Source of the DNA: Arthrobacter rhizosphaerae
Lineage (GTDB): Bacteria > Actinomycetota > Actinomycetes > Actinomycetales > Micrococcaceae
Assembly: GCF_023062595.1 (NCBI RefSeq)
Contig: NZ_JALLAN010000006.1
Coordinates: 1 to 64,000 of the forward strand
Length of the DNA: 64,000 bases
Direction: 5' to 3'
Of this stretch, positions 7,949 to 26,060 are shown piece by piece (within the stretch, counting starts at the first letter, position 1; each line of letters begins with the position of its first letter). The notes below the pieces were generated by a model. That model did not search any database, was not told the origin of the DNA, and saw only the letters and a program-made list of their open reading frames with translations. A program made the translations under genes and the position numbers.

Positions 7949-8883
7949 GGGACGTCCACGGTTTCCATCGGATCCAGCAGTTCGACAGGATCGCGGCGGA
8001 TCGGTGCACCAGCGGCGAAAGCACGCACCTTGGCATCGTCCCAGATGTGGGCGGGGACGCCGCCGCCGAGGAGCCGGCGGGTCAACCGGGGATCGTCGTC
8101 GAACGGCTGGTCGCTCCCGGCCATGACCATATTGCCGTAGCGGCGGCCTTTCAGCATGGCCGGGTCCGCAATGATCATGGTGTGCTCGAAGGTATCCGCA
8201 ATGGTGGCGGCGTCCTCCCGGGCATTCTTCAGGTCAGGAGCATCTCCCGAGTTCACGACGTACATTCCTCCCGGCGCGAGGACGCGGCGGGCGTGCCGGT
8301 TGAATTCCCTGGTGGTCAAGGAACGCGGCGTGAAGGCTCCCGCGAAGACATCCCGGATGATGACGTCCCGCGTTTGCGGGGTGAGGGTTTCGGTAACCTC
8401 GCGGGCTTCACCCACGCGCAGGCGCAGCATGGGGGCTTTCGGCAGATCGAACCAGCCGCGGACGTATTCGGCCAGTTTGCCGTCCAGTTCCACCACCACT
8501 TGGCGGGCCTCGGGATAGGCGGCATGGAAATACCGGGCAAGGGAGCATGCTCCGCCGCCGAGGTGCAGAAGCCTTAGCTTGGGTTTGGACTCCGGCGGCC
8601 AGCGGGACTCGACCAAGGCGGACATCCAGCGCATGTACTCGAATTCGAGGAGCAGCGGGTCAGCCAGGTCGATGTGCGAGCTCATGACCCCGTTGATCCG
8701 CAGGAGCCAGCCCGTTGAGTTGTCCTGGTCCGCGATCAGCTGGCAGTCGCCGGTATCGATGTAGTAGACACCTTCCGCAGGTCCTGCCGGGCGGGTTCCT
8801 TTGGGTATCTCCACCACTCCCGGCACAGACTTTCCGGCCATCGCGCTTCCGGCGGTTTTACCGGCTCTGCCCTTCCGCCCCAT
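7945..8883 (-). CDS. Spermidine-synthase-like (aminopropyltransferase/methyltransferase fold) protein
   Basis: Rossmann-fold protein of the spermidine/spermine synthase superfamily, 312 residues. The nucleotide-binding glycine loop is LLHLGGGACSLARY and the acidic residue after strand 2 is in VVVELDGKLAEYVR. A DVFAGAFTPRSLTTREF segment corresponds to the D-x-F-x-G region of soluble bacterial relatives. It lacks the N-terminal membrane domain of many actinobacterial members. Real polyamine synthesis is uncertain, because many such proteins are uncharacterised. ATG 8883 has a weak ribosome site; ATG 8841 behind GGAAG is an alternative start. Confidence 0.72.
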   Translation of the reverse strand: MGRKGRAGKTAGSAMAGKSVPGVVEIPKGTRPAGPAEGVYYIDTGDCQLIADQDNSTGWLLRINGVMSSHIDLADPLLLEFEYMRWMSALVESRWPPESKPKLRLLHLGGGACSLARYFHAAYPEARQVVVELDGKLAEYVRGWFDLPKAPMLRLRVGEAREVTETLTPQTRDVIIRDVFAGAFTPRSLTTREFNRHARRVLAPGGMYVVNSGDAPDLKNAREDAATIADTFEHTMIIADPAMLKGRRYGNMVMAGSDQPFDDDPRLTRRLLGGGVPAHIWDDAKVRAFAAGAPIRRDPVELLDPMETVDVP

Positions 8884-8936: not shown

Positions 8937-10481
8937 TTAGTTCACAGCACCGTCGCTGACAGCACCGTCAACGGCACTGTCTCCAAGTGCAGCGCTATCG
9001 CCCTTCCTGATTCGCTCCACGACGGCGGTAGTGGACAATTCTGCGACGTAATCCAGGATGGTCACTTTGCCGCCGTAGCGTTCAACGGCCTGGGTCTCGG
9101 CGAGCATTTCCGGCGTGTAATCGCCGCCCTTGGCGTAGATCTCGGGCTGGACCGCCTCGATCAACGGGATGGGGGTCGGAGTATCGAAAACCGTCACGTA
9201 GTCCACGCAGCTCAGCGCGGCAATCACGGCTGCCCGGTCAGCCACCGTGTTGATCGGCCGGCCGGGACCTTTGAGCTTTCGGACGGAATCATCACTGTTG
9301 AGCGCCACCACCAGGATGTCACCCAATTGCTTGGCCTGGTTGAGGTATCTCGTGTGGCCGCGGTGCAGCACGTCGAAGCAACCGTTGGTCAGGACGATCC
9401 TGCGGCCTTCGCTGCGGTGGGCTTGAACATGGCGCACCAGTTCGTCAGCACTAAGCGCGGTATCCACGAAGCTTTCGAGGTACCGGCTGAGCTCTGCAGT
9501 TCCGCACACCGAGGTACCGGCATGGTGCACCACCACGTCGGCAGCAGCCTGGGCGAGGTCCAGGCTGGTGGTGAGGGGCAGGGACGCAGTCCGGGCCAGG
9601 GTCAGGGCAGCCACGAAAGTGTCCCCGGCCCCTGATGCCTGCTTTTCCGCGGCCGGCCGCGCCCAGGTGCGGTGGGTGGTGCCCGCGGCGGGCAGCAGTA
9701 CCGTGCCGTCCCGGTCGAGTGTGACCACCACGGCCTTTGCCCCGGTTGCTTCGATCAGCCGGTCCCGGTTGCTTTCGATAACGGCGGGGCGGTCGTCGTC
9801 GTCGGACAACCGAAGGCCCAGCAGCCGTGCAGCCTCCTGAGCGTTGGGAGTCACAAGGTCCGGTTGGAGGCGTGCCCAGGGGCGCGGATCGTGTGCGTCC
9901 ACGACCGTGAGAAGTCCTGCCTGCCGGTCGGAAAGTACATCCAGGAGGGTGCTCCGGACCGGACCTTCAAGCGCGCCGGAACTGTAGTCGCACAGGACAA
10001 CGGCATCCTGTCCCTTGACGGAATCGGCCACAGTGTCCGCCAGCGCATTCACCGCTTCGAGGGGAATGGCCCGGGCGGCATCATCGAAACGGAGCAGGAC
10101 CTGCCCGCTGCTGCTGACGCGGGTCTTGGTGGTGGTGACCATGTCCGCATGGTCCACCAGATTCCGGACGTCCACGCCTGCGTCCTGCAGCTGCCTCTTG
10201 AGTTCCCGGCCTGCCTCATCCCGGCCGATTATTCCCGCAATGCTGACCCGGGCCCCCAGGGCAGCGAGGTTCATGGCGGTATTGGCGGCGCCGCCGGGAG
10301 CGAAGTCCCTCCGGTTAATTTCCACCACCGGCGCCGGGGCCTCACGGCACATACGGTTGATGGCACCGCTCCACCAGCCATCGAGGATGACGTCGCCCAT
10401 CACGGTAATGGCGGGAGACGTAGCGGCGAGCCTGCCGGGCAGCCAGTCCGCGAGGCCCCGCTGCTCGGAGAGTTCCGTCAT
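8937..10481 (-). CDS. hldE: Bifunctional heptose-7-phosphate kinase / heptose-1-phosphate nucleotidyltransferase (HldE-like), copy A
   Basis: Two fused enzymes in 514 residues. The N-terminal ribokinase/PfkB domain (about 25-335) has FAPGGAANTAMNLAALG and the catalytic ASGAGDTF loop (GAGD 284-287). The C-terminal nucleotidyltransferase domain (about 360-505) has NGCFDVLHRGH (HRGH 373-376) and later AKGGDY. This architecture is that of HldE, which phosphorylates D-glycero-D-manno-heptose 7-phosphate and then couples the 1-phosphate to a nucleotide. The start overlaps the upstream aldehyde dehydrogenase stop by 4 bp, so they are co-translated. The substrate is inferred from architecture plus the nearby gmhA and gmhB homologues. 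Confidence 0.82.
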   Translation of the reverse strand: MTELSEQRGLADWLPGRLAATSPAITVMGDVILDGWWSGAINRMCREAPAPVVEINRRDFAPGGAANTAMNLAALGARVSIAGIIGRDEAGRELKRQLQDAGVDVRNLVDHADMVTTTKTRVSSSGQVLLRFDDAARAIPLEAVNALADTVADSVKGQDAVVLCDYSSGALEGPVRSTLLDVLSDRQAGLLTVVDAHDPRPWARLQPDLVTPNAQEAARLLGLRLSDDDDRPAVIESNRDRLIEATGAKAVVVTLDRDGTVLLPAAGTTHRTWARPAAEKQASGAGDTFVAALTLARTASLPLTTSLDLAQAAADVVVHHAGTSVCGTAELSRYLESFVDTALSADELVRHVQAHRSEGRRIVLTNGCFDVLHRGHTRYLNQAKQLGDILVVALNSDDSVRKLKGPGRPINTVADRAAVIAALSCVDYVTVFDTPTPIPLIEAVQPEIYAKGGDYTPEMLAETQAVERYGGKVTILDYVAELSTTAVVERIRKGDSAALGDSAVDGAVSDGAVN

Positions 10482-11986
10482 GGCTGACCGTCCACGCTGC
10501 CGTCGACGCCGGCGGCACGTTCTGTGCGAAGAAGCGCAATACTCGCGGGAGCGGCAAGTTCAGGAGCAGTGTCAGCCTCGGGAGCGAAGTCAGGCTCAGG
10601 GGCAGCGGCAATGTGGACCACCTTGACGCGGGTGAATTCATCCAGCAGTTCCGGCCCGTACCCGAAGCCATCGCCACTCTCTCCACGCGGTTGGGCAGAG
10701 CCGCCGGGCGCCCCGCCAAAGACCTCGTTGATCTTGACAGTGCCCACCGGGAGTCCGGCGATGGCGCGCTGGGCGTGGGCGATCCTTCCCGTCATTACAG
10801 TCGCAGCGAGGCCGTAACGTCCTGCCGCAGCCAGGGCCAGGCCCTCGTCGAAACTGTCCACCACCTGTACTGGTGCCACCGGTCCGAACGTCTCTTTTGT
10901 CATGATGTCCATGCTGCCGGTGCAGTCCAGGAGAACGGTCGCTGGGTAATAAGCGCCCGGGCCTTCCGGCACGTCGCCGCCTTCAACCGCCCTGGCTCCC
11001 TGCTCCAAAGCAGCCGCTACCTGTTGGTGAACCGCCTCCCGCATGCGGAGATCCACCAGCGGCGCCAAGGCACCGGCGTCGTTCCGTTGGCGCGCTTCCG
11101 CTTCCAGCGCTGTGCAGAATGCCTCCGCGATGGAGCGGTGAACGTAGATCCGCTCCACTGACGTGCAGATCTGCCCGCTATTGCTGAACGCGCCGATCGC
11201 AGCTTGCCGGGCCGCCCAGACGGGGTCGACGTCGTCATCCACCAGAAGGGGATCGTTGCCCCCGTTTTCCCTGATCACATGCGCCGCGTTCTGCAGCGAA
11301 CTGCGCGCAATCTTTGCCCCGGCTTCGCTGGAGCCTACGTGCGCCACCACTGCCACTCCCGCCTGCTCAGTGAGGAGTGTTCCGATCTCCGGGCCACCGG
11401 TGATGGTTATCAGGACATCCGGCGGGAATACCGGAGCCAGGACCTCGCCGAGCAGTTCGCCAAGGTGGGGGCACCTTTCGCTTGGCTTGTGGATCACCGT
11501 ATTCCCGGTCACCAGGGCGGCCCCGATCAGTCCACAGGCAACAGCCACGGGATCGTTCCAGGGGGTCAAAAGAACGGCGACGCCACGGGGTTCGGCAACC
11601 GTGTAGTCGGACGCCAGGAGATTGCCCCTCAGGCTGTGGCCGCGGTGGATAGGTCCAAGCTCCGCGTATTGCTCCAGCGTTGAGACACCGGCCGCAATGC
11701 CGGCCAACGCTTCTTCCACAGGCCGGCCTGTTTCCCGGGCGTTCAACTCAGCGAGATCGGCCGCCGCCGAGTCCAAGGCGAGCGCTGCTTCCCTCAGATG
11801 ACGCCCACGGTCGGACGGCGACGTGGCACCCCATACCTCCTGGGCGGCACGGGCAGCGTTGACCGCTCGTCGGATATCCAGGGGAGCCGCCTCCTGCAAG
11901 GTACCTACCAGATCCCCGGTCCTCGGATCGTAGATGGTGATTCCTTCCACGTCGGCGGTACGGACTCGCTGGACAACTGTGGACAT
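10478..11986 (-). CDS. Aldehyde dehydrogenase coupled to hldE copy A
   Basis: NAD(P)-dependent aldehyde dehydrogenase, 502 residues. The proton-relay Glu is in VIRENGGNDP (Glu240), where the usual ELGG is altered to ENGG, and the catalytic Cys is in NSGQICTSVERI (Cys274). The C-terminus past about residue 460 is a low-complexity Ala/Pro/Glu tail. GAGGAGG stands 7 bp before ATG 11986. It is the first gene of a pair with hldE copy A (4-bp overlap), an unusual partner for a heptose enzyme. It may oxidise a sugar- or polyol-derived aldehyde; this is inference from context only. Confidence 0.8.
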   Translation of the reverse strand: MSTVVQRVRTADVEGITIYDPRTGDLVGTLQEAAPLDIRRAVNAARAAQEVWGATSPSDRGRHLREAALALDSAAADLAELNARETGRPVEEALAGIAAGVSTLEQYAELGPIHRGHSLRGNLLASDYTVAEPRGVAVLLTPWNDPVAVACGLIGAALVTGNTVIHKPSERCPHLGELLGEVLAPVFPPDVLITITGGPEIGTLLTEQAGVAVVAHVGSSEAGAKIARSSLQNAAHVIRENGGNDPLLVDDDVDPVWAARQAAIGAFSNSGQICTSVERIYVHRSIAEAFCTALEAEARQRNDAGALAPLVDLRMREAVHQQVAAALEQGARAVEGGDVPEGPGAYYPATVLLDCTGSMDIMTKETFGPVAPVQVVDSFDEGLALAAAGRYGLAATVMTGRIAHAQRAIAGLPVGTVKINEVFGGAPGGSAQPRGESGDGFGYGPELLDEFTRVKVVHIAAAPEPDFAPEADTAPELAAPASIALLRTERAAGVDGSVDGQP

Positions 11987-12236
11987 CGCGCTCCTCCTCG
12001 GCAGTCGCTCCCCGGCCCCGGGTAAGGGTGGAAAGCAGTGGTCTGCAACACGTTCTTATCCCGTTTCCGTACCCCTTGCAAAGGGCCTTTAGACACCGAA
12101 CCGCGAACTGGTTTTGGAGCGGAAATGGTGGGTACTTTGCCAGTAGCCAGAGGCGTCCGAAGAGCCGTATGGTGTCCCAACGGGGAGCGGCGGCCGGGGC
12201 CTTCAGAAAGGCGATCAGCAGCGTTAGGAGAGCAGA
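11987..12236. promoter_or_regulatory. Divergent promoter region between aldehyde dehydrogenase and GT9 gene
   Basis: A 250-bp intergenic region between genes read away from each other. No single promoter or operator stands out by eye. A ribosome site TTAGGAG lies just before GTG 12237. Confidence 0.4.
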
Positions 12237-13382
12237 GTGGAGCAGCTGACGGCAGATTTTGGTGGTGCCGGCGTCGTTGGGACAGGGGTGGGTCCCGTCC
12301 TGGAAAAGTTCGACGGAATCTCAAGGATTGCTGTGCTCCGCGGAGGCGGGCTCGGGGATTTGCTGTTCGCTGTTCCTGCCATCGCCGCACTGAAGGCCGC
12401 CTATCCCGGCGCGGACGTCACGCTGCTGGGAACACCAATCCATGAGCAGGTGGTTTCTGCCACGGTCGGCCCCATCGACAGGGTACGGGTTCTGCCCTAT
12501 TCCGAGGGCGTCCGCCCGGGCGACGAGAACCCGGCCGGGTTGGAGCACTTTTTTGCGGAGATGCGCGCAGAACGGTTTGACCTTGCCGTGCAGCTCCACG
12601 GCGGCGGGCGCTACTCCAATCCCTTCCTGCTGAGGCTGGGAGCCCGCCACACGGTGGGCATGCGGACAGTTGACGCGGCTAGTCTGGAGCGCACGGTCCC
12701 CTACCTCTACTACCAGAGTGAGCCGCTCCGGGCCTTGGAGGTGGCTGGCTTTGCCGGCGCCCCTCCCATTGATCTTGAGGCGAGGCTTGCCCCTTCCGCC
12801 AGCCTGGATGAGGACCTGGTAAACAACGAAGCCCAGGCGCTGGTGGTGATCCACCCGGGAGCCACCGATCCCCGGCGGCGTTGGCCTGCGGAACGGTTTG
12901 CGGAAGTGGCAGCATCCTGCGCGGCCGATGGATGCCAGGTATTGATCGTGGGCGACTCCAGTGAACAACCGCTGGCTGAACGCACCGCTGAACTCGCCGC
13001 TGTTTCCTCCCCCTCGATGGTCAGGTCAGTAGCGGGCCAGCTCGATGTGTCAGGGCTGGTAGCACTGCTGGCCCGGTGCACCGTGATGGTGGCAAACGAC
13101 AGCGGGCCGCGTCACTTGGCCCAGGCACTCGGCACACCCACGGTGGGCATTTACTGGGCAGGGAACGTCATTAACGCAGCCGCCCTGGGCCGGAGCCTGC
13201 ACCGGGTCCATGCCTCCTGGATCACCAAATGCCGGAGCTGTGGCATTGATGTGACCCAGGTCGGTTGGACAGCCCCCCGGTGCAGCCATAACGATTCTCT
13301 CGTGGAGGACATAGCGGTCACTGCCGTCTATGAGGACGTCAGGGGCCTTACGGCCAGGAGCCCTCGTCTTCGTGGCAGATGA
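12237..13382 (+). CDS. Glycosyltransferase family 9 (heptosyltransferase-type), copy A
   Basis: GT-B glycosyltransferase of 381 residues resembling LPS heptosyltransferases. The N-terminal domain opens IAVLRGGGLGDLLFAVPAIAALKAAYPGADVTLLGTP, the hallmark of GT9, and the C-terminal nucleotide-sugar domain has VVIHPGATDPRRRWPAERFAEVA and VANDSGPRHLAQALGTPTVGIYW. The product would transfer a heptose-like sugar from an NDP donor in the cytoplasm. GTG 12237 follows TTAGGAG. The last 35 bp overlap the convergent SDR gene. The acceptor is unknown; there is no LPS in this type of cell. Confidence 0.85.
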   Translation: MEQLTADFGGAGVVGTGVGPVLEKFDGISRIAVLRGGGLGDLLFAVPAIAALKAAYPGADVTLLGTPIHEQVVSATVGPIDRVRVLPYSEGVRPGDENPAGLEHFFAEMRAERFDLAVQLHGGGRYSNPFLLRLGARHTVGMRTVDAASLERTVPYLYYQSEPLRALEVAGFAGAPPIDLEARLAPSASLDEDLVNNEAQALVVIHPGATDPRRRWPAERFAEVAASCAADGCQVLIVGDSSEQPLAERTAELAAVSSPSMVRSVAGQLDVSGLVALLARCTVMVANDSGPRHLAQALGTPTVGIYWAGNVINAAALGRSLHRVHASWITKCRSCGIDVTQVGWTAPRCSHNDSLVEDIAVTAVYEDVRGLTARSPRLRGR

Positions 13383-14049
13383 GCATCTCGCGGATTTCGC
13401 ATCCTTGGGGCTGGGACAGCACAAACAGAATGGCCTGTGCCACGTTGGCCGGATCATTCAACCGGGAGTCATCCTGTGGCTTGTACTGTTCAGGACGGTC
13501 ATCGAAAAACCTGGTTTTCATTCCGCCGGGGATCATGGTGGTGACTCCGATCTCGCCGCCGGTCTCGGCTGCCAATGCGTGACTGAAGCCCACCACGCCG
13601 AACTTTGAGGCGCAGTAAGCCGATGCCTCGGGCAAGGCCCGTTTTCCCAACGTAGACGCGACGGTCACCGCTCTGCCCCGGGACGCCTTCAGGTACGGCA
13701 AGGCGGCGCGGACAACGGAGACCGTCCCGAGAAGATTGACGCCGATTACCTTCTCCCAATCGTCGGCGGCCACGTCCTCGAGTTTTCCGCAGCGGTCAAT
13801 CCCTGCGGCGGTCACCACGGCATCAAGTCCATCGAGGGTCTCCGCCGCCTGGCGCACCGCCTCCTCCACCGCCCTCCGATCAGAGACGTCCACTTCGAAA
13901 GCCTTTACGGCAGAGACGTTGCTGATATCGCGGTCCAGCACCACCGGGGTCCCGCCGGCTCTCAGCACGGCGTCAACGACGGCGGCACCAAGCCCGGAGG
14001 CTCCTCCCGTCACCAATACTCTGCCAGGGCGCATTGATTCTGCGTTCAT
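13348..14049 (-). CDS. Short-chain dehydrogenase in the sugar island
   Basis: Classical SDR of 233 residues. The cofactor loop TGGASGLG, NNAG-region variant VTAAGIDRCGK, Ser (VASTLGKRALPEAS) and Tyr-x3-Lys (YCASKFG) are visible. It follows hldE copy B by 34 bp with an AAGGA ribosome site, so it closes the island operon. It may oxidise or epimerise a sugar intermediate. It is not of the extended type to which HldD (ADP-heptose 6-epimerase) belongs, so it is not an obvious HldD substitute. The 3' end overlaps the convergent GT9 gene by 35 bp. Confidence 0.82.
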   Translation of the reverse strand: MNAESMRPGRVLVTGGASGLGAAVVDAVLRAGGTPVVLDRDISNVSAVKAFEVDVSDRRAVEEAVRQAAETLDGLDAVVTAAGIDRCGKLEDVAADDWEKVIGVNLLGTVSVVRAALPYLKASRGRAVTVASTLGKRALPEASAYCASKFGVVGFSHALAAETGGEIGVTTMIPGGMKTRFFDDRPEQYKPQDDSRLNDPANVAQAILFVLSQPQGCEIREMLICHEDEGSWP

Positions 14050-14083
14050 GGTTTTCCTTCCGTTTGTGAAAATGATGGACGTA

Positions 14084-15478
14084 TCAGCCGACTTTCAAGA
14101 GCGCTTCCGCCAGGTTCGACGTCGATCTGGCCGGATGATAGGGGACGGTGGTGCAGCGCCCGCCCCAGCCTTCAACGATGGCAGTTTCCGGCAGTTCAGT
14201 GACGTCGTAGTCGCCGCCCTTAACCCATAGGTCCGGCCGCAACTGGCCCAGGCATACCTCAGGCGTGTCCTCGTCGAACACCATCACGGCGTCCACGTAT
14301 TCAAGGGCAAGGAGCATCTCTGTCCGGTCCTCCTGGCTGATGATAGGCCGGTGCTCGCCCTTGATGCGGCGCACTGATTCATCGGAATTCAGGCACACAA
14401 TCAGGCAATCCCCCAGCCTCCGGGCAGCGGCGAGCGCCCGGATGTGGCCAGCGTGCAACAGGTCGAAGCAGCCCCCGGTCGCCACCACGGTGCCGCCCGC
14501 GGCGTGTACGTTGCGGGCGAGGGCCAAGGCGTCGGTGACGCTCCCGTGCAGTTTCACCGGTTCGCGTTCGCCGGCAAGGTTGGCAACGCCGCCCGCTCCA
14601 AGGAAGGCTGCCGCCTCCCGGACGGCCAGGACCGCTGAGTCATCGACATTGAGGCCGTCCAGCAGGTGTACCGCCAGGCTTGCAGCCAGCCGGTCGCCGG
14701 CACCGCACGGGTCTGAGACCGAGGTCGCCGGGGCGGGGACCGTCAGGGCCGGCCTGCCGTCATCCCGCACCAGCACGGCGCCGCGGGCTCCCAGCGTGAC
14801 CAGCACGGCTTTACTGTGCCAGTTCCGCAACAGGGCCGCCGCAATGTATCCGGGGTCTTCACTGCGGTCACCTCCCTTGGGCCCACCGCCCCTGAACTCC
14901 CCCGCCAATACCGAGAACTTACGGGCTTCGCTCAGATTCGGAGTCACGGCCTCGACGCCGGGGACAGGCTCAGTCCCTGCCGGATGCGGGTCCCAGACGA
15001 TGGGGATCTGCGAAGCCAGGGACTCCAGCAGCATCCGGAGCTCTGGTGCCGCCGTGAGTCCCCTGCCGTAGTCAGCCACCACAATGGCCTTGGCCTGTTC
15101 AAGGGCGTGCAGCATAGGCTCGGTGACAGCAGGCACCGGTGCGGGCTCGCAGCCCTCGTCAAAGCGCACCACAGGGTGGCCGTCGGCTCGGACCCTGGTC
15201 TTGACCGGCGTCGGCGCTCCGGAGGGTCCGGCGATTACAGTGACTCCTTCCAAGGCGCGTTCCAGGTGCGAGGCGGAGTCGTCGTCGGACAGGACAGTCA
15301 CCAGGGTGACGTGATGCCCATCAGCAGCCAGCATCTTCGCCACAAGCCCGGCGCCTCCGGCCCGGCGCTGGACAGACCCGACGTCCACCACTGGAACGGG
15401 GGCGTCCGGGCACAGACGGGTGGCGTGACCAGCGATATCAACATCCAGCAGCACATCCCCCACTACAACGATCCTCAC
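14084..15478 (-). CDS. hldE: Bifunctional PfkB kinase / nucleotidyltransferase (HldE-like), copy B
   Basis: 464 residues with the HldE layout: a ribokinase-type domain (about 1-315; QRRAGGAGLVAKMLAADG, DPCGAGDR with GAGD 259-262) and a cytidylyltransferase-type domain (about 328-464; GGCFDLLHAGH with HAGH 342-345, then KGGDY). Compared with copy A it is shorter and diverged, with no N-terminal leader. GTG 15478 overlaps the gmhA stop by 4 bp. Its position directly after gmhA and downstream of gmhB makes this the main candidate for making the activated heptose. Nucleotide preference cannot be read from the sequence. Confidence 0.82.
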   Translation of the reverse strand: MRIVVVGDVLLDVDIAGHATRLCPDAPVPVVDVGSVQRRAGGAGLVAKMLAADGHHVTLVTVLSDDDSASHLERALEGVTVIAGPSGAPTPVKTRVRADGHPVVRFDEGCEPAPVPAVTEPMLHALEQAKAIVVADYGRGLTAAPELRMLLESLASQIPIVWDPHPAGTEPVPGVEAVTPNLSEARKFSVLAGEFRGGGPKGGDRSEDPGYIAAALLRNWHSKAVLVTLGARGAVLVRDDGRPALTVPAPATSVSDPCGAGDRLAASLAVHLLDGLNVDDSAVLAVREAAAFLGAGGVANLAGEREPVKLHGSVTDALALARNVHAAGGTVVATGGCFDLLHAGHIRALAAARRLGDCLIVCLNSDESVRRIKGEHRPIISQEDRTEMLLALEYVDAVMVFDEDTPEVCLGQLRPDLWVKGGDYDVTELPETAIVEGWGGRCTTVPYHPARSTSNLAEALLKVG

Positions 15479-16185
15479 GGCCGGACCTCCCCGGGGGAAA
15501 GGTGGGCGGCAGAGCCGGTTGCCCGCCTCGAAACCTCAGTGTCAAACGCCCGGCACATTGCGTGCAGTGCGATCAAGTGCCCCTCCTGTGCATTGGCTGA
15601 AACGGCATCAATAATTACTGCTTCATCGCAGGCATCCGCCAGGGGATTGGGCCCAGGTCCTGTCAGGGCCCACGTGCTGATGTTCAGGGCTGCAGCGGTT
15701 TCAACAGCCCGCAGGAGGTTGGGGCTTTTGCCGCTCGTCGAGAGCAGGATCAGCACGTCCCCTGACCTGCCATGCGCCCTGACCTGGCGGGCGAAGAGCT
15801 CCTCAAAGCCGTAATCATTGGCAATGGCTGTCACGGCTGACGTCTCGGCGTGCAGGCTGATAGCCGAAAACGGCACCCTTTCGCCGTCGAACCTTCCTAC
15901 CAGTTCCGCCGTCAGGTGCTGGGCCTCGGCAGCCGAACCGCCGTTGCCGGCTGCGAGAAGCCGCTGGCCGCGCAGCAACCGCTGCGCCAGCTCCTGCCCC
16001 CATGAAGCGAGACGCTCAGCCTGGCCCCGCAGGGACTCCAGGGCGGGGAGGACGTTCTGCAGGTGAGCCTGGACAGCCAGCAGGGACTGGTTGCCTCTGG
16101 AGTCCACCACGGGCAGCGTGGCCAACGGCGGGAACGGAAGCAATGCCGGCACGGCACCATCCTTGACTTTCCATTGAGTAGTCAC
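15475..16185 (-). CDS. gmhA: Phosphoheptose isomerase-like SIS protein
   Basis: SIS-domain sugar-phosphate isomerase, 236 residues. In Gram-negatives GmhA converts sedoheptulose 7-phosphate to D-glycero-D-manno-heptose 7-phosphate. The motif GNGGSAAEAQHLTAELVGRF (from residue 80) carries the conserved Glu, followed by LLSTSGKSPNLLRAV and the C-terminal AQEGHLIALHAMCRAFD expected of GmhA. A hydrophobic N-terminal extension of about 35 residues is longer than in typical GmhA. GTG 16185 behind AAAGGAG is chosen; it overlaps the preceding glycosyltransferase stop (GTGA), showing translational coupling. Confidence 0.84.
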   Translation of the reverse strand: MTTQWKVKDGAVPALLPFPPLATLPVVDSRGNQSLLAVQAHLQNVLPALESLRGQAERLASWGQELAQRLLRGQRLLAAGNGGSAAEAQHLTAELVGRFDGERVPFSAISLHAETSAVTAIANDYGFEELFARQVRAHGRSGDVLILLSTSGKSPNLLRAVETAAALNISTWALTGPGPNPLADACDEAVIIDAVSANAQEGHLIALHAMCRAFDTEVSRRATGSAAHLSPGEVRP

Positions 16186-17441
16186 AGCGCTGCTCCTTTC
16201 ATATGCTCCAACTGACGGGATGCCACGTTCCCTGCTATCGCCTGCTGATAGGCCCTCTCCGATTCCGCTGCCACCCTGTCCCATGAGTAGCGGGACCTGG
16301 CACGTTTCTCCCCGGCTTTACCCAGCTCTGACCGCAGCAGCGGGGCCCCGAGCAGTTCCGCCAGCGCAGCTGCGATAGCTTCCGGATCCTTCGGTGGCAC
16401 GTGCAGTCCCGTCTTCCGGTCCACCACTGTGTCCCTCAGCCCGCCCACAGCAGCAGCCACGACAGGGACACCGCAGGCCATGGCTTCAAGTGGCACAATT
16501 CCGAACGGCTCGTACCAGGGTGTGCACACAACGGCGTCGGCGCTGCGCAGGATTCCCGGCATCGCGTCCCTCGGCAACTGCCCGCGCAGGCTCACCTGGT
16601 TCGCCACCCCAAGCTCCTCGGCAACTGCCATGAGCCGGCTGCCTTCCGGATCGGCACCAGTGACGGCTGCGTCGCCCTCTCCGCCTACAATCAGCAGTTC
16701 GACGTCGTCAAAGCCCGCCGCCCGCAGGAACGGCAAGGCCTGAATTACCAGGTCCACTCCCTTACGCGGCACAAGGCGACCCACGGACAGGATGCGGTAG
16801 GTACGGGGCCGGGGTTCGGAGGCGCCTGTGGCGGAAAAGAGGTCCAGGTCCACACCGCAGGGGGCAATGGAAATCTTCCCGGTGTTTATGCCCATGGCTT
16901 TCAGTTCGAAGACTTCGTCCGAGCAGGTGGCGATGATCCGGTCAGCGGCCCGGCCCACGTACGGTTCGAGCCACCCGCGCTCGGCGGGGCTGGTGTCCTG
17001 GGCGCCCTGGTGCCGTCGTTTGACAGTTCCCAGGGCATGGAAGGTCTGGACCATTGGCACGTGCAGGCTTGCATCGCCCCTTCTGGCGGCGTCCAGCGAG
17101 GCCAATCCGGACATCCAGAAATGCCCATGTACGACGTCGGGACGGCGGCTTCCCCAGTCCTTGGCGATTCCGTCGGCGAGCTTACCCATAAAGGGGAGCA
17201 ATTCATCCTTGGGAACGTGCTTCGCCGGACCGGCGTCAATATGTACCACGTCAAGGCGTGGCATGATGCCAACCCTTGCCGGCAGATCGGCGGCGTCCCG
17301 GCGGGTATAGACGGTGACGTGATGGCCCCGGCGGGAGAGTGCTGTTGAGAGCGCCGCAACGTGTACGTTCTGCCCTCCGGCGTCCACGCCGCCCAGCGCG
17401 GCCAGAGGACTCGCGTGTTCTGACACCATGGATATTCTCAT
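16182..17441 (-). CDS. Glycosyltransferase family 4
   Basis: GT-B retaining glycosyltransferase, 419 residues, beginning MRISMVSEHASPLAALGGVDAGGQNVHVAAL, a MshA/sucrose-synthase-like donor-acceptor lobe opening. The C-terminal lobe has the SVGRLVPRKGVDLVI loop and the E-x7-E motif (EPFGIVPLEAMACG). ATG 17441 with AGAGGA upstream is chosen; the frame extends open to 17795 but that part overlaps another gene. It is coupled to both neighbours by 4-bp overlaps. It probably adds a hexose or heptose to the island's glycan. Confidence 0.87.
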   Translation of the reverse strand: MRISMVSEHASPLAALGGVDAGGQNVHVAALSTALSRRGHHVTVYTRRDAADLPARVGIMPRLDVVHIDAGPAKHVPKDELLPFMGKLADGIAKDWGSRRPDVVHGHFWMSGLASLDAARRGDASLHVPMVQTFHALGTVKRRHQGAQDTSPAERGWLEPYVGRAADRIIATCSDEVFELKAMGINTGKISIAPCGVDLDLFSATGASEPRPRTYRILSVGRLVPRKGVDLVIQALPFLRAAGFDDVELLIVGGEGDAAVTGADPEGSRLMAVAEELGVANQVSLRGQLPRDAMPGILRSADAVVCTPWYEPFGIVPLEAMACGVPVVAAAVGGLRDTVVDRKTGLHVPPKDPEAIAAALAELLGAPLLRSELGKAGEKRARSRYSWDRVAAESERAYQQAIAGNVASRQLEHMKGAAL

Positions 17442-18454
17442 TGCATTTTCCTCTCTTGCGCCGGAACAAGTACTTGTCCCCTCCGGAAACGCCTGCACGG
17501 GAGATCGTCCAGCAGCTCGTCCCAGGCACGGAGGAAGGCACCCAGGCTGTAGTTCGCCAAGGCCGACTCCCGTGCCGCCGCTCCCATCTGCCGGGCTTCC
17601 TCCGGATCCAGGATCAGCCTGTGCGCCCAGCGTCGGAGCTCCTCGACGTCGGTTGAAACGACGCCGGCCCCGGGAGGAACCGCGCGGGCCGCCTCCGTAG
17701 TGGCCAGGGCGAGTACAGGCATGCCCAGATGCATTGCCTCCAGCAGTGACAGTCCCAACGAGGTCCACCGCAACGGATGCAGGTACACGCGGCAATGGGC
17801 CAGTTCACGGTGCAGGTCCGGCGTCACCAGGTCCCCGCGCACCCTCAACCGTGACGGATAGATTCCCGTTTCAGCCAGCAGCCCGCCACCGCCCATGCCG
17901 AAGACCTGGAGCGGGGCTACGGAGGCAAAACGCGCCAACAGGTCGGTCCCGGTAACCCTCCCCCGGCGCACGGGTTCGTTCACTACAACCCCCAGATCCG
18001 GGGTCGCCCCCGTGTAGAGGTAGCCCGGATCCGGGATGCCGTGTTCAATCACCACCGTGGGGGCGGCCCCGCTGTCCCAGAAGAGGTCGTTGAAATGAGT
18101 TACGTGGACTATGGGAATGTTGTTCTGGGCGGCGAGCGGGTGGCTTGTCCACGGCACGTCCCCCTTCGGCGTGTTGTGCTCCACGTAAACAGCGGGAAGC
18201 TCCGGTCCGGGCCTGCGTCCCAGCACGCGGTGCACTTCGTCGATCTCTTCGGGCCGTTGGAGGACGACGGCGTCAATGCTGTCCGGGTCCAACGTCGCCA
18301 ACGTGACTTCAGAGACTGATGCCGGCCAGTTCCTGCCTGCGCGTCCCAGGCCCCATGGACCTCCTTCGGGAAGGACCGGCAGGAGGTACTGGTGACGCCC
18401 GCGGACGAACGCATCCGTCCAGGCGCCGTGAACATGCCACAACAGGATTCTCAT
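17438..18454 (-). CDS. Glycosyltransferase (GT-B fold)
   Basis: Putative cytoplasmic glycosyltransferase of 338 residues. It starts MRILLWHVHGAWTDAFVRGRH and has VYVEHNTPKGD, VTHFNDLFWDSG, a phosphate-site stretch FGMGGGGL and the C-terminal SLGLSLLEAMHLGMPVLALATTEAARA, equivalent to the E-x7-E region. It is a short, diverged member of the GT1/GT4 group. ATG 18454 overlaps the following GT9 stop (18451), and its own stop overlaps the GT4 start. Donor and acceptor are unknown. Confidence 0.78.
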   Translation of the reverse strand: MRILLWHVHGAWTDAFVRGRHQYLLPVLPEGGPWGLGRAGRNWPASVSEVTLATLDPDSIDAVVLQRPEEIDEVHRVLGRRPGPELPAVYVEHNTPKGDVPWTSHPLAAQNNIPIVHVTHFNDLFWDSGAAPTVVIEHGIPDPGYLYTGATPDLGVVVNEPVRRGRVTGTDLLARFASVAPLQVFGMGGGGLLAETGIYPSRLRVRGDLVTPDLHRELAHCRVYLHPLRWTSLGLSLLEAMHLGMPVLALATTEAARAVPPGAGVVSTDVEELRRWAHRLILDPEEARQMGAAARESALANYSLGAFLRAWDELLDDLPCRRFRRGQVLVPAQERKMQ

Positions 18455-19527
18455 GGGTGCCAGACCTTTCTCCGCGTACTGAGGGAAGACACTCCGCTGA
18501 TCAGTCGTTCCACGGCATCCGCCACCTGTTCAGGTGCCACGGAGCTGAGGCAAGGATGCCCCGGTACAGGACATTCCCTGGCCCTGGTGAGCCTGCACGG
18601 AGCATTTTGGTCTCCCAACAGCTCCAGCGGAACCCCATAGGGTGCCCAGCGGACCGCGGGAACCACGGGGGAAAAGAGGCACACCACCGGTGTACCCACC
18701 GCAGCAGCAAGGTGGGCAGGACCGGTGTTACCCGTTACCACCGCCTTCGCCCGGGCAAGGACACCGGACAGCGTCCGCAGGTCGGTGCGTCCTCCGAGGT
18801 CGATCCCGGATGGTCCTGCCACGGTTGCCGTGAGGGCCCGTTCCCCCGGAGCACCGGTCACCACTACGCGATGACCTGCACCTTCGAGCAGTTCCACGGC
18901 AGCAGCGTGATGCAGCGGCGGCCAGGCCCGCGCAGGTGCTGTTGCCCCGGGATGCACCACGACGTAGGGCTCCTCCCCCACAAGGTCAGTGACGTCGGGA
19001 ACAGGAAGCACCTTGAGCTTGCCGTCATCGCCTGGAGGTAAGTCAAATCCGGCAGCCCGGGCGATGCCGAGGGCACGCTCCGCTTCAGGCTGGTCCTCGG
19101 GAAAATCTTCGCCCGGCCGCAGCCTGACATCCAGAAGTGATCCGGGGTAGTCCGTTGAGGCGCCAGCAACGCGGGTAACTCCGGCCAAACGGAGCAGTAA
19201 AGCGAGGGGCAACGGAGATTGATGAAAGGAAGTGAGAATGACGGCTTCGGTAATCCTGGAGTGCCGGATGAAGTCAGTAAGCGTATCCAGGTGCCTTGCA
19301 CTCACCGGAGGGCCAGGGTTGGCGATCCAAGGGCATGCCCAGCTGAAGACCTCAGTCACGCTGGGGAGGATGGACGCCGCCGCTTCGCCCTGGGGCCCGC
19401 ACAGCATGACAACGTCGTTGGCCCGCCCGGGGCCCGAGCGCCTGCCATGGGCAACAGCCCGGACGGCAGGACCTGCCAGCAGAACATCGCCCACACTGTC
19501 CAGGCGGGCCACCAGGACGCGGCTCAC
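18451..19527 (-). CDS. Glycosyltransferase family 9 (heptosyltransferase-type), copy B
   Basis: GT9 protein, 358 residues: VLVARLDSVGDVLLAGPAVRAVA at the N-terminus, then VVVHPGATAPARAWPPLHHAAAVELL and VTGNTGPAHLAAAVGTPVVCLFSPVVPA in the nucleotide-sugar domain. An RARECPVPGHPCLSS segment near the C-terminus carries the Cys pair common in WaaF-type members. GTG 19527 overlaps the gmhB stop by 4 bp. Likely transfers a heptose made by the neighbouring enzymes. Confidence 0.86.
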   Translation of the reverse strand: MSRVLVARLDSVGDVLLAGPAVRAVAHGRRSGPGRANDVVMLCGPQGEAAASILPSVTEVFSWACPWIANPGPPVSARHLDTLTDFIRHSRITEAVILTSFHQSPLPLALLLRLAGVTRVAGASTDYPGSLLDVRLRPGEDFPEDQPEAERALGIARAAGFDLPPGDDGKLKVLPVPDVTDLVGEEPYVVVHPGATAPARAWPPLHHAAAVELLEGAGHRVVVTGAPGERALTATVAGPSGIDLGGRTDLRTLSGVLARAKAVVTGNTGPAHLAAAVGTPVVCLFSPVVPAVRWAPYGVPLELLGDQNAPCRLTRARECPVPGHPCLSSVAPEQVADAVERLISGVSSLSTRRKVWHP

Positions 19528-20066
19528 GGCGGACCGTCCAGGAGCATCCGGATTGCAGCGCTAAGGTCCTCTGCAACGTTTCCGACGGCGGCTTCCACCT
19601 CTTCGGTGCGCGTCGCCTGCGTCGGAACAAGGACGCCCCTGGCACCGGCCGCTTCTGCAGCTTCCAGGTCAGAGCCGATGTCTCCTATGTAGGCTGCCTG
19701 CGCGGGGGAGATTCCGAGGCGGCGGCAGGCGGCGATGATCATGCCGGGGGCGGGCTTCCGGCAGCCGCACCTGTCCTCGGGCGCATGCGGACAGATTTCC
19801 CAAACATCGAAAGGCCCCAGCAGCTCTTCGATGCGCAAATTGACGCTGCTGACCTGGTTTTGGGTTAAGAGACCGCGGGAAATTCCGGACTGGTTACTGA
19901 TGACGCCCGTGGCCAGGCCAAGGGCGCGAAGTTCCTGCAAAACAATGGAGGCATGGCCCATGGGCTCCACCAGGTCAGGGTTCCCGTTGTAGGGCACGTC
20001 CTGTACCAGCGTGCCGTCCCGGTCGAACAGGACAGCCCGAAGCGGTAATGAGTTGTCACTTCCCAT
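19524..20066 (-). CDS. gmhB: Heptose-1,7-bisphosphate 7-phosphatase-like HAD protein
   Basis: HAD-IIIA phosphatase, 180 residues, the usual GmhB size. The catalytic DRDGT is at residues 15-19, SNQSGISRG forms motif II, and the zinc-ligand cluster C-x-H-x5-C-x-C (Cys92, His94, Cys100, Cys102) is intact, followed by RKPAPG and GDIGSDLEAA. GmhB removes the 7-phosphate of D-glycero-D-manno-heptose 1,7-bisphosphate. This is the promoter-proximal gene of the seven-gene reverse-strand operon that runs down to the SDR. Histidinol-phosphatase-type relatives share the motif, so the substrate rests on context. Confidence 0.86.
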   Translation of the reverse strand: MGSDNSLPLRAVLFDRDGTLVQDVPYNGNPDLVEPMGHASIVLQELRALGLATGVISNQSGISRGLLTQNQVSSVNLRIEELLGPFDVWEICPHAPEDRCGCRKPAPGMIIAACRRLGISPAQAAYIGDIGSDLEAAEAAGARGVLVPTQATRTEEVEAAVGNVAEDLSAAIRMLLDGPP

Positions 20067-20157
20067 ATCCAGTCCGTTCCCCGTTACAGTCCTTGCTAAA
20101 CAGCTCGGGAAGGACTTCTCTTGGGGCTAGACTCCAAACTCGAGGAAGGACACGGAT

Positions 20158-21102
20158 TTGAACGGTCATCCTGTGCAGCAACCCAGGCCTGATTTACTGG
20201 TGTTGCGGGCCCTCAAGCTCGGAGACCTGCTGGTTGCGGTGCCGGCATTGCACGCTTTGCGCCGCGCTTATCCGGAACACCGTCTTCGCTATGCTGCCCA
20301 GGGCTGGCTGACGGAGGCGCTCCAGCTCGTCGGCGGTTTTGAACTTCTGCCGACGCACGGGCTGGACGAACCGATTGCCCTGGAGCCCGGCACTGTTGAC
20401 GTGGCAGTCAACCTGCATGGCAGCGGACCGGAAAGCCAGGAGCGCATAGAGGAACTCAAGGCCCGCCACACCATTTCCCACATATCTGAGCGCAGGGACG
20501 GGCCCCCATGGCAACCGGACCTCCATGAGCGGGAGCGCTGGACGACCCTGTTGCAATGGCATGGCATCGAAGCTGACCCCTTGGACTTTCGCCTCAACCG
20601 TCCGGCAGTACCTGCGGCAATACCGGATGCCACCGTAATCCACGTCGGCGCGGCCTACGGCAGCCGTCTCTGGCCCGTCGACCGGTTCGCTTTCGTGGCG
20701 TCCAAGCTGGCGGCTTCAGGGCACAGCGTTCTTTTTACGGGGAGCGCTGCCGAACGCGAGCGCGCCCTGGTGGTCTGCCGAAGGGCAGGCCTCGCCGAAA
20801 CCGCAGTTGTGGCGGGGCAACTGACGCTCAGCCAGTTCGCAGCGGCGGTGGCCGACGCACGGCTGGTCATCTCGGCAGACACGGGGGCAGCACATCTGGC
20901 CTCCGCTTACGGCATACCGTCCGTAGTGCTCTTCGGCCCGGCTCCGCCCGAAATCTGGGGCCCTCCGCCAGGCCCGCATGTGGTGCTGACCAAGGCTGCG
21001 GTAAGGCGCGGAGACACCTTTGCCGCTGACCCGGATCCGGCGATATTGGGGGTGGCCACTCAGGAGGTACTGGAGGCCGTCCGAGGCCTGGGCCTGCTTT
21101 GA
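20158..21102 (+). CDS. Glycosyltransferase family 9 (heptosyltransferase-type), copy C
   Basis: GT9 protein, 314 residues: LLVLRALKLGDLLVAVPALHALRRAYPEH, then VIHVGAAYGSRLWPVDRFAFVASKLA and ISADTGAAHLASAYGIPSVVLFGPAPPEIWG. TTG 20158 is used because GAGGAAGGA lies directly upstream and no ATG is nearby. It is divergent from gmhB with only 91 bp between them, so both probably share a control region. The last 43 bp overlap the convergent sigma-factor gene. Confidence 0.85.
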   Translation: MNGHPVQQPRPDLLVLRALKLGDLLVAVPALHALRRAYPEHRLRYAAQGWLTEALQLVGGFELLPTHGLDEPIALEPGTVDVAVNLHGSGPESQERIEELKARHTISHISERRDGPPWQPDLHERERWTTLLQWHGIEADPLDFRLNRPAVPAAIPDATVIHVGAAYGSRLWPVDRFAFVASKLAASGHSVLFTGSAAERERALVVCRRAGLAETAVVAGQLTLSQFAAAVADARLVISADTGAAHLASAYGIPSVVLFGPAPPEIWGPPPGPHVVLTKAAVRRGDTFAADPDPAILGVATQEVLEAVRGLGLL

Positions 21103-21977
21103 GTATCGCCGTCGAGCAGCCGTTGCTGAAGCTGGACCAGGATCTTTGAGAGCCGGCGGGAGACCTGCATTTGGGTCATCCCCACTCTCTGGCCCAGTTC
21201 GCTTTGTGATTCCTCCAGGAAGTAGCGCCGGTAGAGCAGCTGCCGATCCGCTTCACTGAGCTCCTGGATGGCGTCGCTGAGGCTGAGAAGTTCTTCGAGC
21301 CGCTCAGGGGAGGCATCGGGGGAGACGAGCGTTTCGGCGGGAGGTGGCGCATCACTATGTACATCAACCGCATCCAGCGAGTCCGGACGAAGGCTGGCGG
21401 AAGCGGCCATCGCTTCCCGGACGCACGCGACGTCGGCGCCCAGTTCCAGGGCGATTTCAGCGTCCGTGGGAGACCTTCGCAGCCTCTGCGACAGCAGGGG
21501 CTCAGTCCGCAGGATCTCTGTGCGAAGGTCCTGGATGTGCCGGGGCGGCCGGACCATCCAGCAACGGTCCCGCAGATATCGTTTGAGTTCACCGGTGATG
21601 GTGGGGGTTGCGTAAGCGGGAAAACTCCCACCCCGGCTCTCATCAAAACCCCGCGCGGCCTTGACCAGGCCCAGGTAGGCAACCTGATTCAGGTCCGCCC
21701 TTTCGCGTCCCCTGGAGACGAACCTTGCGGCGAGGGACTCGGCAAGATCCAGGTAGGTGAGAACCAGGTGATTCTGGAACGTGAGCTGAATCTGGCCTTG
21801 CTGGTTCTGTCGTGGCTGATTATTCGCCGGTTTATTGTGCTCCGGCTGACTGTGCGCTTTTTGGTTGTGCGCTCTTTGGTTGTGCGCAGGCTGGCTGTGC
21901 ACAGGCCGGTTTGGAGCCGTCTTGTAGCTTCGTCCGGTTGCCGGGAGCAACGGCAGGGAAGGCTGGGTTTCCCGCAT
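21060..21977 (-). CDS. SigB/SigF-class RNA polymerase sigma factor
   Basis: Group 3 sigma-70 factor, 305 residues, of the stress/sporulation type. Region 2 is recognisable in ERADLNQVAYLGLVKAARGFDESRGGSFPAYATPTITGELKRYLRD, region 3 in RLRRSPTDAEIALELG, and region 4 HTH in ESQSELGQRVGMTQMQVSRRLSKIL. ATG 21977 behind AAAGGA is the start. The first 60 residues are a hydrophilic Gln/Asn/His tail with seven five-residue repeats, absent from typical members. No anti-sigma (RsbW-like) gene adjoins it. It probably controls part of the stress genes nearby (inferred). Confidence 0.9.
   Translation of the reverse strand: MRETQPSLPLLPATGRSYKTAPNRPVHSQPAHNQRAHNQKAHSQPEHNKPANNQPRQNQQGQIQLTFQNHLVLTYLDLAESLAARFVSRGRERADLNQVAYLGLVKAARGFDESRGGSFPAYATPTITGELKRYLRDRCWMVRPPRHIQDLRTEILRTEPLLSQRLRRSPTDAEIALELGADVACVREAMAASASLRPDSLDAVDVHSDAPPPAETLVSPDASPERLEELLSLSDAIQELSEADRQLLYRRYFLEESQSELGQRVGMTQMQVSRRLSKILVQLQQRLLDGDTQSRPRPRTASSTS
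21798..21902 (-). repeat. Seven 15-bp units encoding a five-residue H-N-Q repeat in the sigma factor
   Basis: Residues 26-60 read as successive pentads VHSQP, AHNQR, AHNQK, AHSQP, EHNKP, ANNQP and RQNQQ. The DNA shows matching degenerate repeats with the core TTGTGCGC. It is disordered, low-complexity sequence. Confidence 0.85.
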
Positions 21978-22041
21978 GTCGTTCGTTCCTTTGTGCTGGA
22001 GCGTTCGAAAAGCCCGTGGCAAGACTTATCAGTAGCGAACC

Positions 22042-24967: not shown

Positions 24968-25386
24968 GCAGCCAGATACCGGAGCCTCCTCCCTCTGAGG
25001 CGCACATGAAAGCGGACAACTCCTCACTGGGCGATCTGCTGAGCGATGTCACCAGGGACATTTCCACGCTGATGCGCCAGGAAGTTGAGCTGGCCAAGGC
25101 CGAGATCAAGCAGTCGGGAACCCGGGCCGGGAAAGGTGCAGGCCTGTTGGCTGGCGCCGGCGTGGCCGGGCACTTCGTGCTGCTGTTCCTCTCCGTGGCT
25201 CTCTGGTGGGGACTGGGCAACCTGATCGGGCACGGCTGGTCCGCCGTCGTAGTCGCCGTGATCTGGGCCATCATCGCCGCAATCCTCGCGTCCATGGGCC
25301 GCAAGGAACTCAAGGCGATCAAGGGCATGCCCCAGACCGCGGAAACGCTCCAGGAGATTCCACCCACCTTGAAACCAAATACCTAG
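24964..25386 (+). CDS. Actinobacterial holin-X (DUF1469-like) membrane protein
   Basis: 140 residues. An N-terminal amphipathic part SLGDLLSDVTRDISTLMRQEVELAKAEIKQS is the hallmark of the holin-X/YqjD-related family, followed by two membrane helices (GHFVLLFLSVALWWGLGNLI and AVVVAVIWAIIAAILASMG) and the basic end RKELKAIKGMPQTAETLQEIP. Despite its name, in this context it is a membrane organiser in a stress operon, not phage lysis machinery; no phage genes are near. It starts at an ATGA overlap with the upstream gene. Confidence 0.88.
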   Translation: MSSQIPEPPPSEAHMKADNSSLGDLLSDVTRDISTLMRQEVELAKAEIKQSGTRAGKGAGLLAGAGVAGHFVLLFLSVALWWGLGNLIGHGWSAVVVAVIWAIIAAILASMGRKELKAIKGMPQTAETLQEIPPTLKPNT

Positions 25387-25404
25387 ATCGAGCAAGGACA
25401 GACG

Positions 25405-26001: not shown

Positions 26002-26018
26002 CCCTGCCGCGTCGATCA

Positions 26019-26060
26019 GGCCGGCCGCCCGCACGCGGGCCGGCCGGCCTGCCCGTTTAT
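26019..26060 (+). terminator. GC-rich terminator hairpin after DUF3618 gene
   Basis: Long inverted repeat GGCCGGCCGCCCGC / GCGGGCCGGCCGGCC (26019-26049, one bulged base, loop ACGC or similar) with a short T run at 26055-26057. Confidence 0.78.

Follow-up and report, generated by a model that had tools for sequence, protein, structure and literature searches.

Heptose has seven carbons and is best known as a sugar of the outer membrane of Gram-negatives. Why should a Gram-positive actinobacterium carry all the genes needed to activate and transfer it, and into what would it build the sugar? The question is raised by positions 8937-21102 of a stretch of 64,000 nucleotides from Arthrobacter rhizosphaerae (contig NZ_JALLAN010000006.1, here called the window), whose source genome comprises 5.02 Mb in 48 contigs. 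A preliminary description of the window had listed a gmhA-like and a gmhB-like gene, two genes for bifunctional HldE-like enzymes (here HldE-A and HldE-B), three for heptosyltransferase-type glycosyltransferases of family GT9 (GT9_1 to GT9_3) and two for other glycosyltransferases (GT4_1 and GT4_M), and had proposed that they make a heptose-containing surface glycan. An open reading frame (ORF) check and profile searches found every one of these families in the region, at the coordinates collected in Table 1. We consider it likely that the operon led by gmhB belongs, in variant form, with the cwg-type operons of actinobacteria, that it makes a short heptose-containing glycan by way of nucleoside diphosphate (NDP)-D,D-heptose and that it stands under stress control of the SigB/SigF type. 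As its product, a small glycoconjugate with heptose, formed in response to stress, would be the most likely.

The vertebrate immune receptor ALPK1 responds strongly to NDP-heptoses, whereas what these compounds do for the bacteria that produce them is described as little known (PMC11573728). An actinobacterial heptose pathway with a stress-type motif and cwg homology offers a concrete handle on what heptose is built into, and it would tie stress regulation to a pair of enzymes that activate heptose and to a glycan that Burkholderiaceae would have as well. The cwg operon itself and the annotations of CwgE and CwgH are already known; new here are the SigB-type motif before the Micrococcaceae cluster, the two HldE lineages and the Burkholderiaceae clusters that lack gmhA and hldE. 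The cwg homology, the motif with its nearby sigma factor gene and the Gram-negative relatives also go beyond the preliminary description. Among the open-access papers listed, none has a title or abstract that deals with the operon of Arthrobacter or with the clusters of Burkholderiaceae.

Homology to the Streptomyces cwg operon

In Streptomyces coelicolor, SCO6179-6190 form the cwg operon, a sigma-E target whose promoter lies 147 bp before the start codon; the operon is induced by vancomycin, partly in a sigma-E-dependent manner, and its predicted product is a glycan of the cell wall (PMC6767563). The names cwgB to cwgJ, including cwgH for a 'phosphoheptose isomerase', are in print (PMC5839063), and CwgE has been termed a putative heptosyl transferase (PMC5882110). 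We searched for the published cwg promoter string in 392 genomes from a single genus, taken to be Streptomyces. It was present with at most two mismatches in 7/392 genomes, lay 8.9 kb ahead of HldE-B in one of them (G481) and occurred exactly in another (G778), where 12 genes begin 147 bp behind it. The first three of these encode an epimerase, a carbamoyltransferase and a glycosyltransferase, and genes 11 and 12 encode two more glycosyltransferases. Genes 4-10 correspond in order to GmhB (55% identity to the window protein), GT9_2 (60%), GT4_1 (57%), GT4_M (54%), GmhA (58%), HldE-B (48%) and GT9_3 (46%). Because the genes behind the cwg promoter match in order, the window operon is, by sequence comparison, a homologue of cwgD-J and can be classed as a variant cwg-type operon.

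Common to both loci is the ordered block GmhB-GT9-GT4-GT4-GmhA-HldE-GT9. They differ in that GT9_3 of the window is divergent rather than downstream as in G778; in that the window adds genes for an SDR oxidoreductase, HldE-A, an aldehyde dehydrogenase (ALDH) and GT9_1; and in that a SigB-type motif precedes the window operon, whereas the S. coelicolor operon has a sigma-E promoter. CwgA resembles annotated UDP-glucuronate decarboxylases, and cwgB encodes a carbamoyltransferase. Homologues of cwgA, B, C, K and L were absent from the window genes scanned (A, C, K and L were not sought genome-wide), and a search of the genome for a CwgB-type carbamoyltransferase, run without a positive control, gave no match.

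Two side observations concern cwg loci elsewhere. In G778, the gene that points away from the cwg promoter (L218:18807-19631) is a polysaccharide deacetylase by Pfam, which agrees with the published table of the sigma-E regulon, where SCO6178 is listed as a 'putative deacetylase' (PMC6767563). A whole cwg-type cluster is also carried by the linear plasmid p65_CHABEC of Streptomyces sp. CA-256286 (L129), which is typed as mobilizable; there it sits among stress-type genes (STAS, ANTAR, CsbD and a SigB/SigF/SigG sigma factor).

Enzymes of the predicted heptose pathway

The Gram-negative ADP-heptose pathway runs through GmhA, HldE, GmhB and HldD, with WaaC and WaaF as heptosyltransferases. The window shares these enzyme families and, judging from family membership, the chemical steps as well, but it has no HldD over the cut-off and has two HldE lineages. 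Comparison with characterised enzymes upheld the names first given, in that GmhA, HldE, GmhB and GT9 all matched solved structures of the heptose pathway. GmhA matched the phosphoheptose isomerase 1tk9 (E 9.4e-40) and retains the GNGGSAA..AQH and QE.H blocks of the solved isomerases, while GmhB matched the D,D-heptose 1,7-bisphosphate phosphatase 4pnh (E 3.2e-18). HldE-A and HldE-B both matched the heptose kinase 4e84 and the nucleotidyltransferase 5x9q (deposited as a putative cytidylyltransferase). The nucleotidyltransferase domain of HldE-A passes the TIGR02199 cut-off of 181.5 bits (197.9 bits), which the HldE-B domain narrowly misses (178.7 bits). In the HldE-B alignment, GAGD is kept in 132/134 rows and HxGH in 130/134; our alignments contain duplicate rows for genomes present in both of the collections used.

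The GT9_2 profile matched the WaaC and WaaF structures (E <1e-15), and GT9_1 matched the WaaF structure 1psw (E 4.9e-13). All three GT9 proteins exceed the Pfam gathering score (98, 79 and 76 bits vs 22) and are the only Pfam GT9 matches in the whole genome, which also holds a single GmhA match. The GmhA, HldE and GmhB families, with the key motifs for D,D-heptose activation, are all present as judged from these matches, and the assignments support a predicted NDP-heptose pathway with heptosyltransferase-type enzymes at the locus. Because no HldD in the genome exceeded the cut-off (best own-genome match, 85.2 vs 274.6 bits), D,D-heptose would be the likely form, which favors the preliminary suggestion that it may be the end product.

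Conservation across Actinomycetota

A search of 149 genomes of the family for HldE-B showed it, full or split, in 44 of them by the count of listed matches (own genome included), so that the cluster is patchy even within the family. Regions were fetched from 40 of the other 43 HldE-B-bearing genomes, one of which (L061) is truncated by the contig end. ORF matches in these 40 numbered 40 for HldE-B, 39 for GT4_M, 38 for GmhB, 37 each for GT9_2 and GT4_1, 33 each for HldE-A, SDR and GT9_3, 32 for GmhA, 31 for GT9_1, 30 for ALDH and 28 for the sigma factor gene next to GT9_3. A tblastn search added GmhA in L058, L066-L069 and L071, raising it to 38/40; L065 and L070, in which HldE-B is split, lack GmhA even by tblastn.

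At the level of the phylum, 49/396 genomes (own included) gave a match to the HldE profile at E 1e-40, some of these matches being single-domain. The core block was found in 16 of 20 regions taken from 19 of the 49 genomes, with GmhB missing from L123, which is cut by a contig end. L114, L119, L126 and L127 lack the block, L119 being the second region of a genome whose L118 has it, and the Streptomyces-like regions L115-L117 gave no match to the SDR. When named genomes were scanned with the GT9_2 alignment, at least 590 stretches came up, at least 578 of them confirmed. The best 80, which we used, come from Micrococcaceae, Microbacteriaceae, Brevibacterium, Pseudonocardiaceae and a few others, and 61 of them had enough flank. 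All seven core genes were present as ORFs in 57 of these 61 relatives (58 with tblastn), which argues that the gene set is not a chance assembly. Some core genes are missing also by tblastn from L157, L183 and L194, and by ORF only from L202; L192, just below the flank limit, lacks GT4_1, GmhA and HldE-B. Outside the core, ORF matches covered the SDR in 60/61, HldE-A in 51/61, the sigma factor homologue in 48/61 and ALDH in 33/61.

The core is therefore widespread though patchy in Actinomycetota, and the picture of an isolated island in a Gram-positive genome did not hold up, while the conservation of the block in related genomes did. A horizontal origin of the region was also considered and rejected: its G+C content (0.64-0.66) is little above that of the flanks (0.59-0.63 over most of the window), and most relatives keep the gene order.

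Clusters without gmhA and hldE

Twelve plasmid records matched GT9_2; they come from Arthrobacter, Streptomyces, Nonomuraea and nine Burkholderiaceae (L131, L221, L222 and L226-L231; two belong to the same species, B. multivorans). All nine Burkholderiaceae records hold homologues of CwgB (46-48%), CwgC, GmhB (CwgD), GT9_2 (CwgE) and CwgF and a further GT9; a CwgL-like protein occurs in 8/9, GT4_M (CwgG) and a CwgA-like epimerase in 6/9 each, and the SDR in 4/9. GmhA and HldE had no match in any of the nine within the fetched 17-25 kb, other replicons not having been searched. An ABC transporter of ~890-915 residues lies close by in 5/6 annotated Burkholderiaceae records, and a PIG-L deacetylase is present in 4/6.

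Burkholderiaceae produce ADP-heptose for their lipopolysaccharide (LPS). Since gmhA and hldE are absent from 9/9 homologous clusters, the simplest view is that the cluster needs heptose in activated form and that the activation genes may be dispensable where the LPS pathway supplies it; the glycosyltransferases of these clusters are then predicted to be able to use NDP-heptose from a shared pool. The preliminary description had stated that the actinobacterium has no LPS to receive the heptose. To our knowledge a lipid A core is indeed not to be expected in actinobacteria, but the point is not decisive, because cwg-related clusters also exist in LPS-bearing Gram-negatives.

Two HldE lineages

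In a tree of 59 sequences, HldE-B grouped with CwgI and relatives of it from across the phylum, whereas HldE-A fell on the side of E. coli HldE, separated by fully supported branches. The tree was rooted at the midpoint, with E. coli as the only sequence deliberately added from outside the phylum, and it omits 10 of 28 further homologues (a stop in the fixed-cut translation, some surely cut artefacts) and nine rows that were too short. Of 20 HldE-A rows, 19 formed one group and L126 joined E. coli HldE. We rejected a recent duplication, since A and B lie on opposite sides of fully supported branches; on the tree, the two enzymes are two old lineages.

The motif (F/L)XXGRSTT (STTR5) marks nucleotidyltransferases that also make CDP- and UDP-heptose (PMC11573728, PMC11461863, both on Tang et al. 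2024). HldE-B of the window reads YHPARSTS at its C-terminal motif, off the pattern at three positions. Its lineage mostly keeps the motif arginine of the enzymes described by Tang et al. 2024 (118/134 rows; H in 7, Y in 5, K in 1, gap in 3), and the other positions vary. Among HldE-A rows, 38/103 have the arginine (H in 42, Q in 11, and others), and the window protein has L. A clean split by arginine was not found; the difference between the lineages is a tendency, not a rule. As a side observation, HldE-A of L059, L060, L062 and L063 (Micrococcaceae genus g7) reads NGVFDGLHRGH and no longer has the STT motif; the nucleotidyltransferase half of this enzyme may therefore have lost or altered its activity.

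These patterns invite a bolder proposal, which we regard as speculative and rather improbable: the two HldEs would feed separate pools, HldE-B supplying CDP- or UDP-heptose to the cwg-type glycosyltransferases and HldE-A supplying ADP-heptose to GT9_1. In that case the cwg-type clusters, those of Burkholderiaceae included, would be where CDP- and UDP-heptose find their missing physiological use, and their product would be a stress-induced heptose glycoconjugate of Gram-positives and Gram-negatives.

A SigB-type motif before the operon

The motif GTTTAGCAAGGACTGTAACGGGGAA ends 10 bp before the ATG of GmhB, and because of this short distance the operon mRNA is probably leaderless or nearly so. 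The consensus of Bacillus subtilis SigB is GTTTAA-N12-14-GGG(A/T)A(A/T), from which the -35 element of the motif differs by one base (PMC8346170). A SigB-like motif was found upstream of GmhB in 92/133 loci vs 84/5000 random pieces. After removal of duplicate upstreams and sorting by the author into Micrococcaceae-like and other loci via locus number, the strict form GTTTAG-N-GGG(A/T)A was present in 70/91 distinct Micrococcaceae-like upstreams vs 91/20000 random pieces (0.5%), with a spacing of 14 in 65/70 spaced matches. The sequence surrounding the motif varies across loci, and the strict form gave 0 or 1 match upstream of each of ten other neighborhood genes. From the motif, a SigB/SigF-type promoter pattern is predicted before the operon, and the neighboring sigma factor may be its regulator.

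Two wider roles for the motif were tried and rejected. The strict form occurs twice in the genome, the other copy lying in an apparent open frame as judged by eye, which does not fit a general SigB regulon of strict sites (looser SigB-type promoters were not sought genome-wide); and 0/69 distinct ALDH upstreams carry it, so the HldE-A/ALDH pair would not share the promoter. In Frankia, an ADP-heptose:LPS heptosyltransferase was found only in salt-tolerant strains and was up-regulated under salt (PMC5563000).

Nature and location of the product

On the families of the enzymes, HldE would phosphorylate C1 of the heptose phosphate, GmhB would take off the 7-phosphate, and the HldE nucleotidyltransferase would form NDP-D,D-heptose. 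GT4_M, GT4_1 and the GT9 enzymes would then assemble the short glycan with its heptose, to be modified by the SDR and perhaps by ALDH too. In Micrococcaceae, a stress sigma factor of the SigB/SigF type would turn the operon on, and the product of the neighboring sigma factor gene is the most likely candidate. The glycan may be attached to the envelope, and a surface location is plausible by analogy with the cwg literature. The proposal of a heptose-containing surface glycan is thus supported in part, by families, for the NDP-heptose pathway.

Several observations weigh against this reading. The HldE kinase domains, GmhA, GmhB and GT9 have strong E-values yet fall below the NCBIfam equivalog cut-offs, and GT9_2 has N where WaaC has D before T-G-x-x-H (12/12 aligned). 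Two actinobacterial loci, L192 (Leifsonia) and L194 (Flaviflexus), keep GT9, GT4_M, GmhB, the SDR and HldE-A and lack gmhA and HldE-B in the stretch read, so that loss of gmhA is not confined to LPS bacteria unless the gene lies elsewhere (not searched); HldE-A may stand alone there. The GmhB-like HAD phosphatase is kept in these two loci and in all nine Burkholderiaceae clusters, and it may therefore have another substrate or a second role. Outside the Micrococcaceae-like set, the strict motif was found in 0/35 distinct upstreams (7/35 for the looser form), and its genome-wide count equals that of a reversed control (2 vs 2), so that the case for the promoter rests on conservation and not on the single site. 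The known control of the S. coelicolor cwg operon is by sigma-E, and a salt study reports little sign of SigB (PMC6767563, PMC13011467). The conserved core, as defined in this analysis, holds no export gene, and the genes therefore do not point to the surface. A phosphorylated acceptor for GT4_M is, moreover, plausible from its sequence.

This last point leads to the strongest rival, which is possible though in our judgment doubtful: the product would be a soluble intracellular or secreted oligosaccharide, for instance a stress solute, for which GT4_M, in the manner of sucrose-phosphate synthase or MshA, would add a sugar to an acceptor that bears a phosphate, and the HAD phosphatase would afterwards remove that phosphate. 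The best structural match of GT4_M is Tll1590 (6kih), which we take to be a sucrose-phosphate synthase, followed by MshA-type structures including 3c4q. In 139 GT4_M rows, two of them from Burkholderiaceae, the lysine and arginine aligned with K78 and R154 of MshA, presumably phosphate contacts, are kept in 138/139 and 139/139. Retention of the HAD gene in the 9/9 Burkholderiaceae clusters without gmhA and hldE would suit such a product, as would the SigB-type motif and the activation of cwgA by salt in S. coelicolor, which occurs without induction of sigE (PMC13011467). Against it, MshA Y110 and T134 are replaced by F and A in 139/139 rows, so that the acceptor probably differs from inositol phosphate, and induction of cwg by vancomycin, partly via sigma-E, fits an envelope product (PMC6767563).

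We think it quite unlikely that the pathway handles a sugar phosphate other than D-glycero-D-manno-heptose, although PfkB-type kinases and SIS isomerases are versatile, the kinase domains score well under the HldE-specific cut-offs (HldE-B further under) and L192 and L194 retain glycosyltransferases without gmhA and HldE-B. The co-occurrence of GmhA, two-domain HldE, GmhB and GT9, with the genome's only GT9 matches at this locus, speaks for heptose, as does the joint absence of gmhA and hldE from 9/9 clusters in Burkholderiaceae, presumed makers of ADP-heptose. A natural-product cluster using ADP-heptose in the manner of septacidin is very improbable: actinobacteria can put NDP-heptose into small molecules (PMC11573728), but no assembly-line enzyme is present among the window proteins scanned (8937-21102) and the block is too widespread. 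Just as implausible is cytosolic protein heptosylation by an Aah/TibC-like GT9 enzyme, which has a trace match of GT9_2 to TIGR04414 in its favor (E 8e-4) but at 18 bits against a cut-off of 200, with a profile that matches WaaC and WaaF, and which would leave several glycosyltransferases and the SDR unexplained.

Layout of the locus

The operon and its neighbors are listed in Table 1. Overlaps of 4 bp join GmhB/GT9_2, GT9_2/GT4_1, GT4_1/GT4_M and GmhA/HldE-B, as well as ALDH/HldE-A, which form a separate minus-strand pair. The preliminary claim that overlaps join the genes from gmhB to hldE copy B stands for these junctions, and for GT4_M/GmhA it depends on which GmhA start is right. The domain match of GmhA opens only at residue 77, and its true start is therefore placed, probably, downstream of 16284; the ORF of GT4_M extends over 16182-17795, and its start probably lies near 17441, at an ATG overlapping the upstream stop. 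The SDR gene follows HldE-B at 34 bp in the same reverse-strand operon, just as first described.

Table 1. Features of the cwg-type locus and its immediate neighborhood in the window.
Feature	Position	Strand	Basis or remark
HldE-A, second bifunctional HldE, other lineage	8937-10481	-	PRK11316 E 1e-112, below cut-off
Aldehyde dehydrogenase (ALDH)	10478-11986	-	PF00171 E 3.6e-103
GT9_1, heptosyltransferase-type glycosyltransferase	12237-13382	+	PF01075 E 6.2e-28
SDR oxidoreductase, operon member	13348-14049	-	PF00106 E 6e-42
HldE-B, bifunctional heptose kinase/nucleotidyltransferase, CwgI homologue	14084-15478	-	PRK11316 E 1.2e-84, below cut-off
GmhA-like sedoheptulose 7-phosphate isomerase, CwgH homologue	15475-16284	-	TIGR00441 E 5.1e-41, below cut-off
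GT4_M, MshA/sucrose-phosphate-synthase-like glycosyltransferase, CwgG homologue	16182-17441	-	TIGR03449 MshA E 1.1e-69, below cut-off
GT4_1 glycosyltransferase, CwgF homologue	17438-18454	-	PF00534 E 6.8e-10
GT9_2, heptosyltransferase-type glycosyltransferase, CwgE homologue	18451-19527	-	PF01075 E 3.9e-22
GmhB-like HAD-IIIA phosphatase, CwgD homologue, opens the operon	19524-20066	-	NCBIfam PRK08942 E 4.6e-33, below cut-off
SigB-type promoter-like motif GTTTAG-N14-GGGAA	20077-20101	-	ends 10 bp before GmhB start codon
GT9_3, divergent heptosyltransferase-type glycosyltransferase, CwgJ homologue	20158-21102	+	PF01075 E 2.7e-21
SigB/SigF/SigG-family sigma factor, candidate regulator, adjoins GT9_3	21060-22022	-	TIGR02980 E 1.6e-58, below cut-off

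Three features of the flanks were noted in passing. A 312-residue protein is encoded at 7945-8883; it has no Pfam match at 1e-5, and a homologue stands beside HldE-A in 15/80 named loci. An NAD-dependent epimerase-like gene at 22162-23313 is divergent from the sigma factor gene, neighbors it in some relatives and was not listed in the own-genome HldD search. Near the sigma factor gene, at 24964-27274, lies a row of genes of the Holin-X, DUF3618 and BrkB families.

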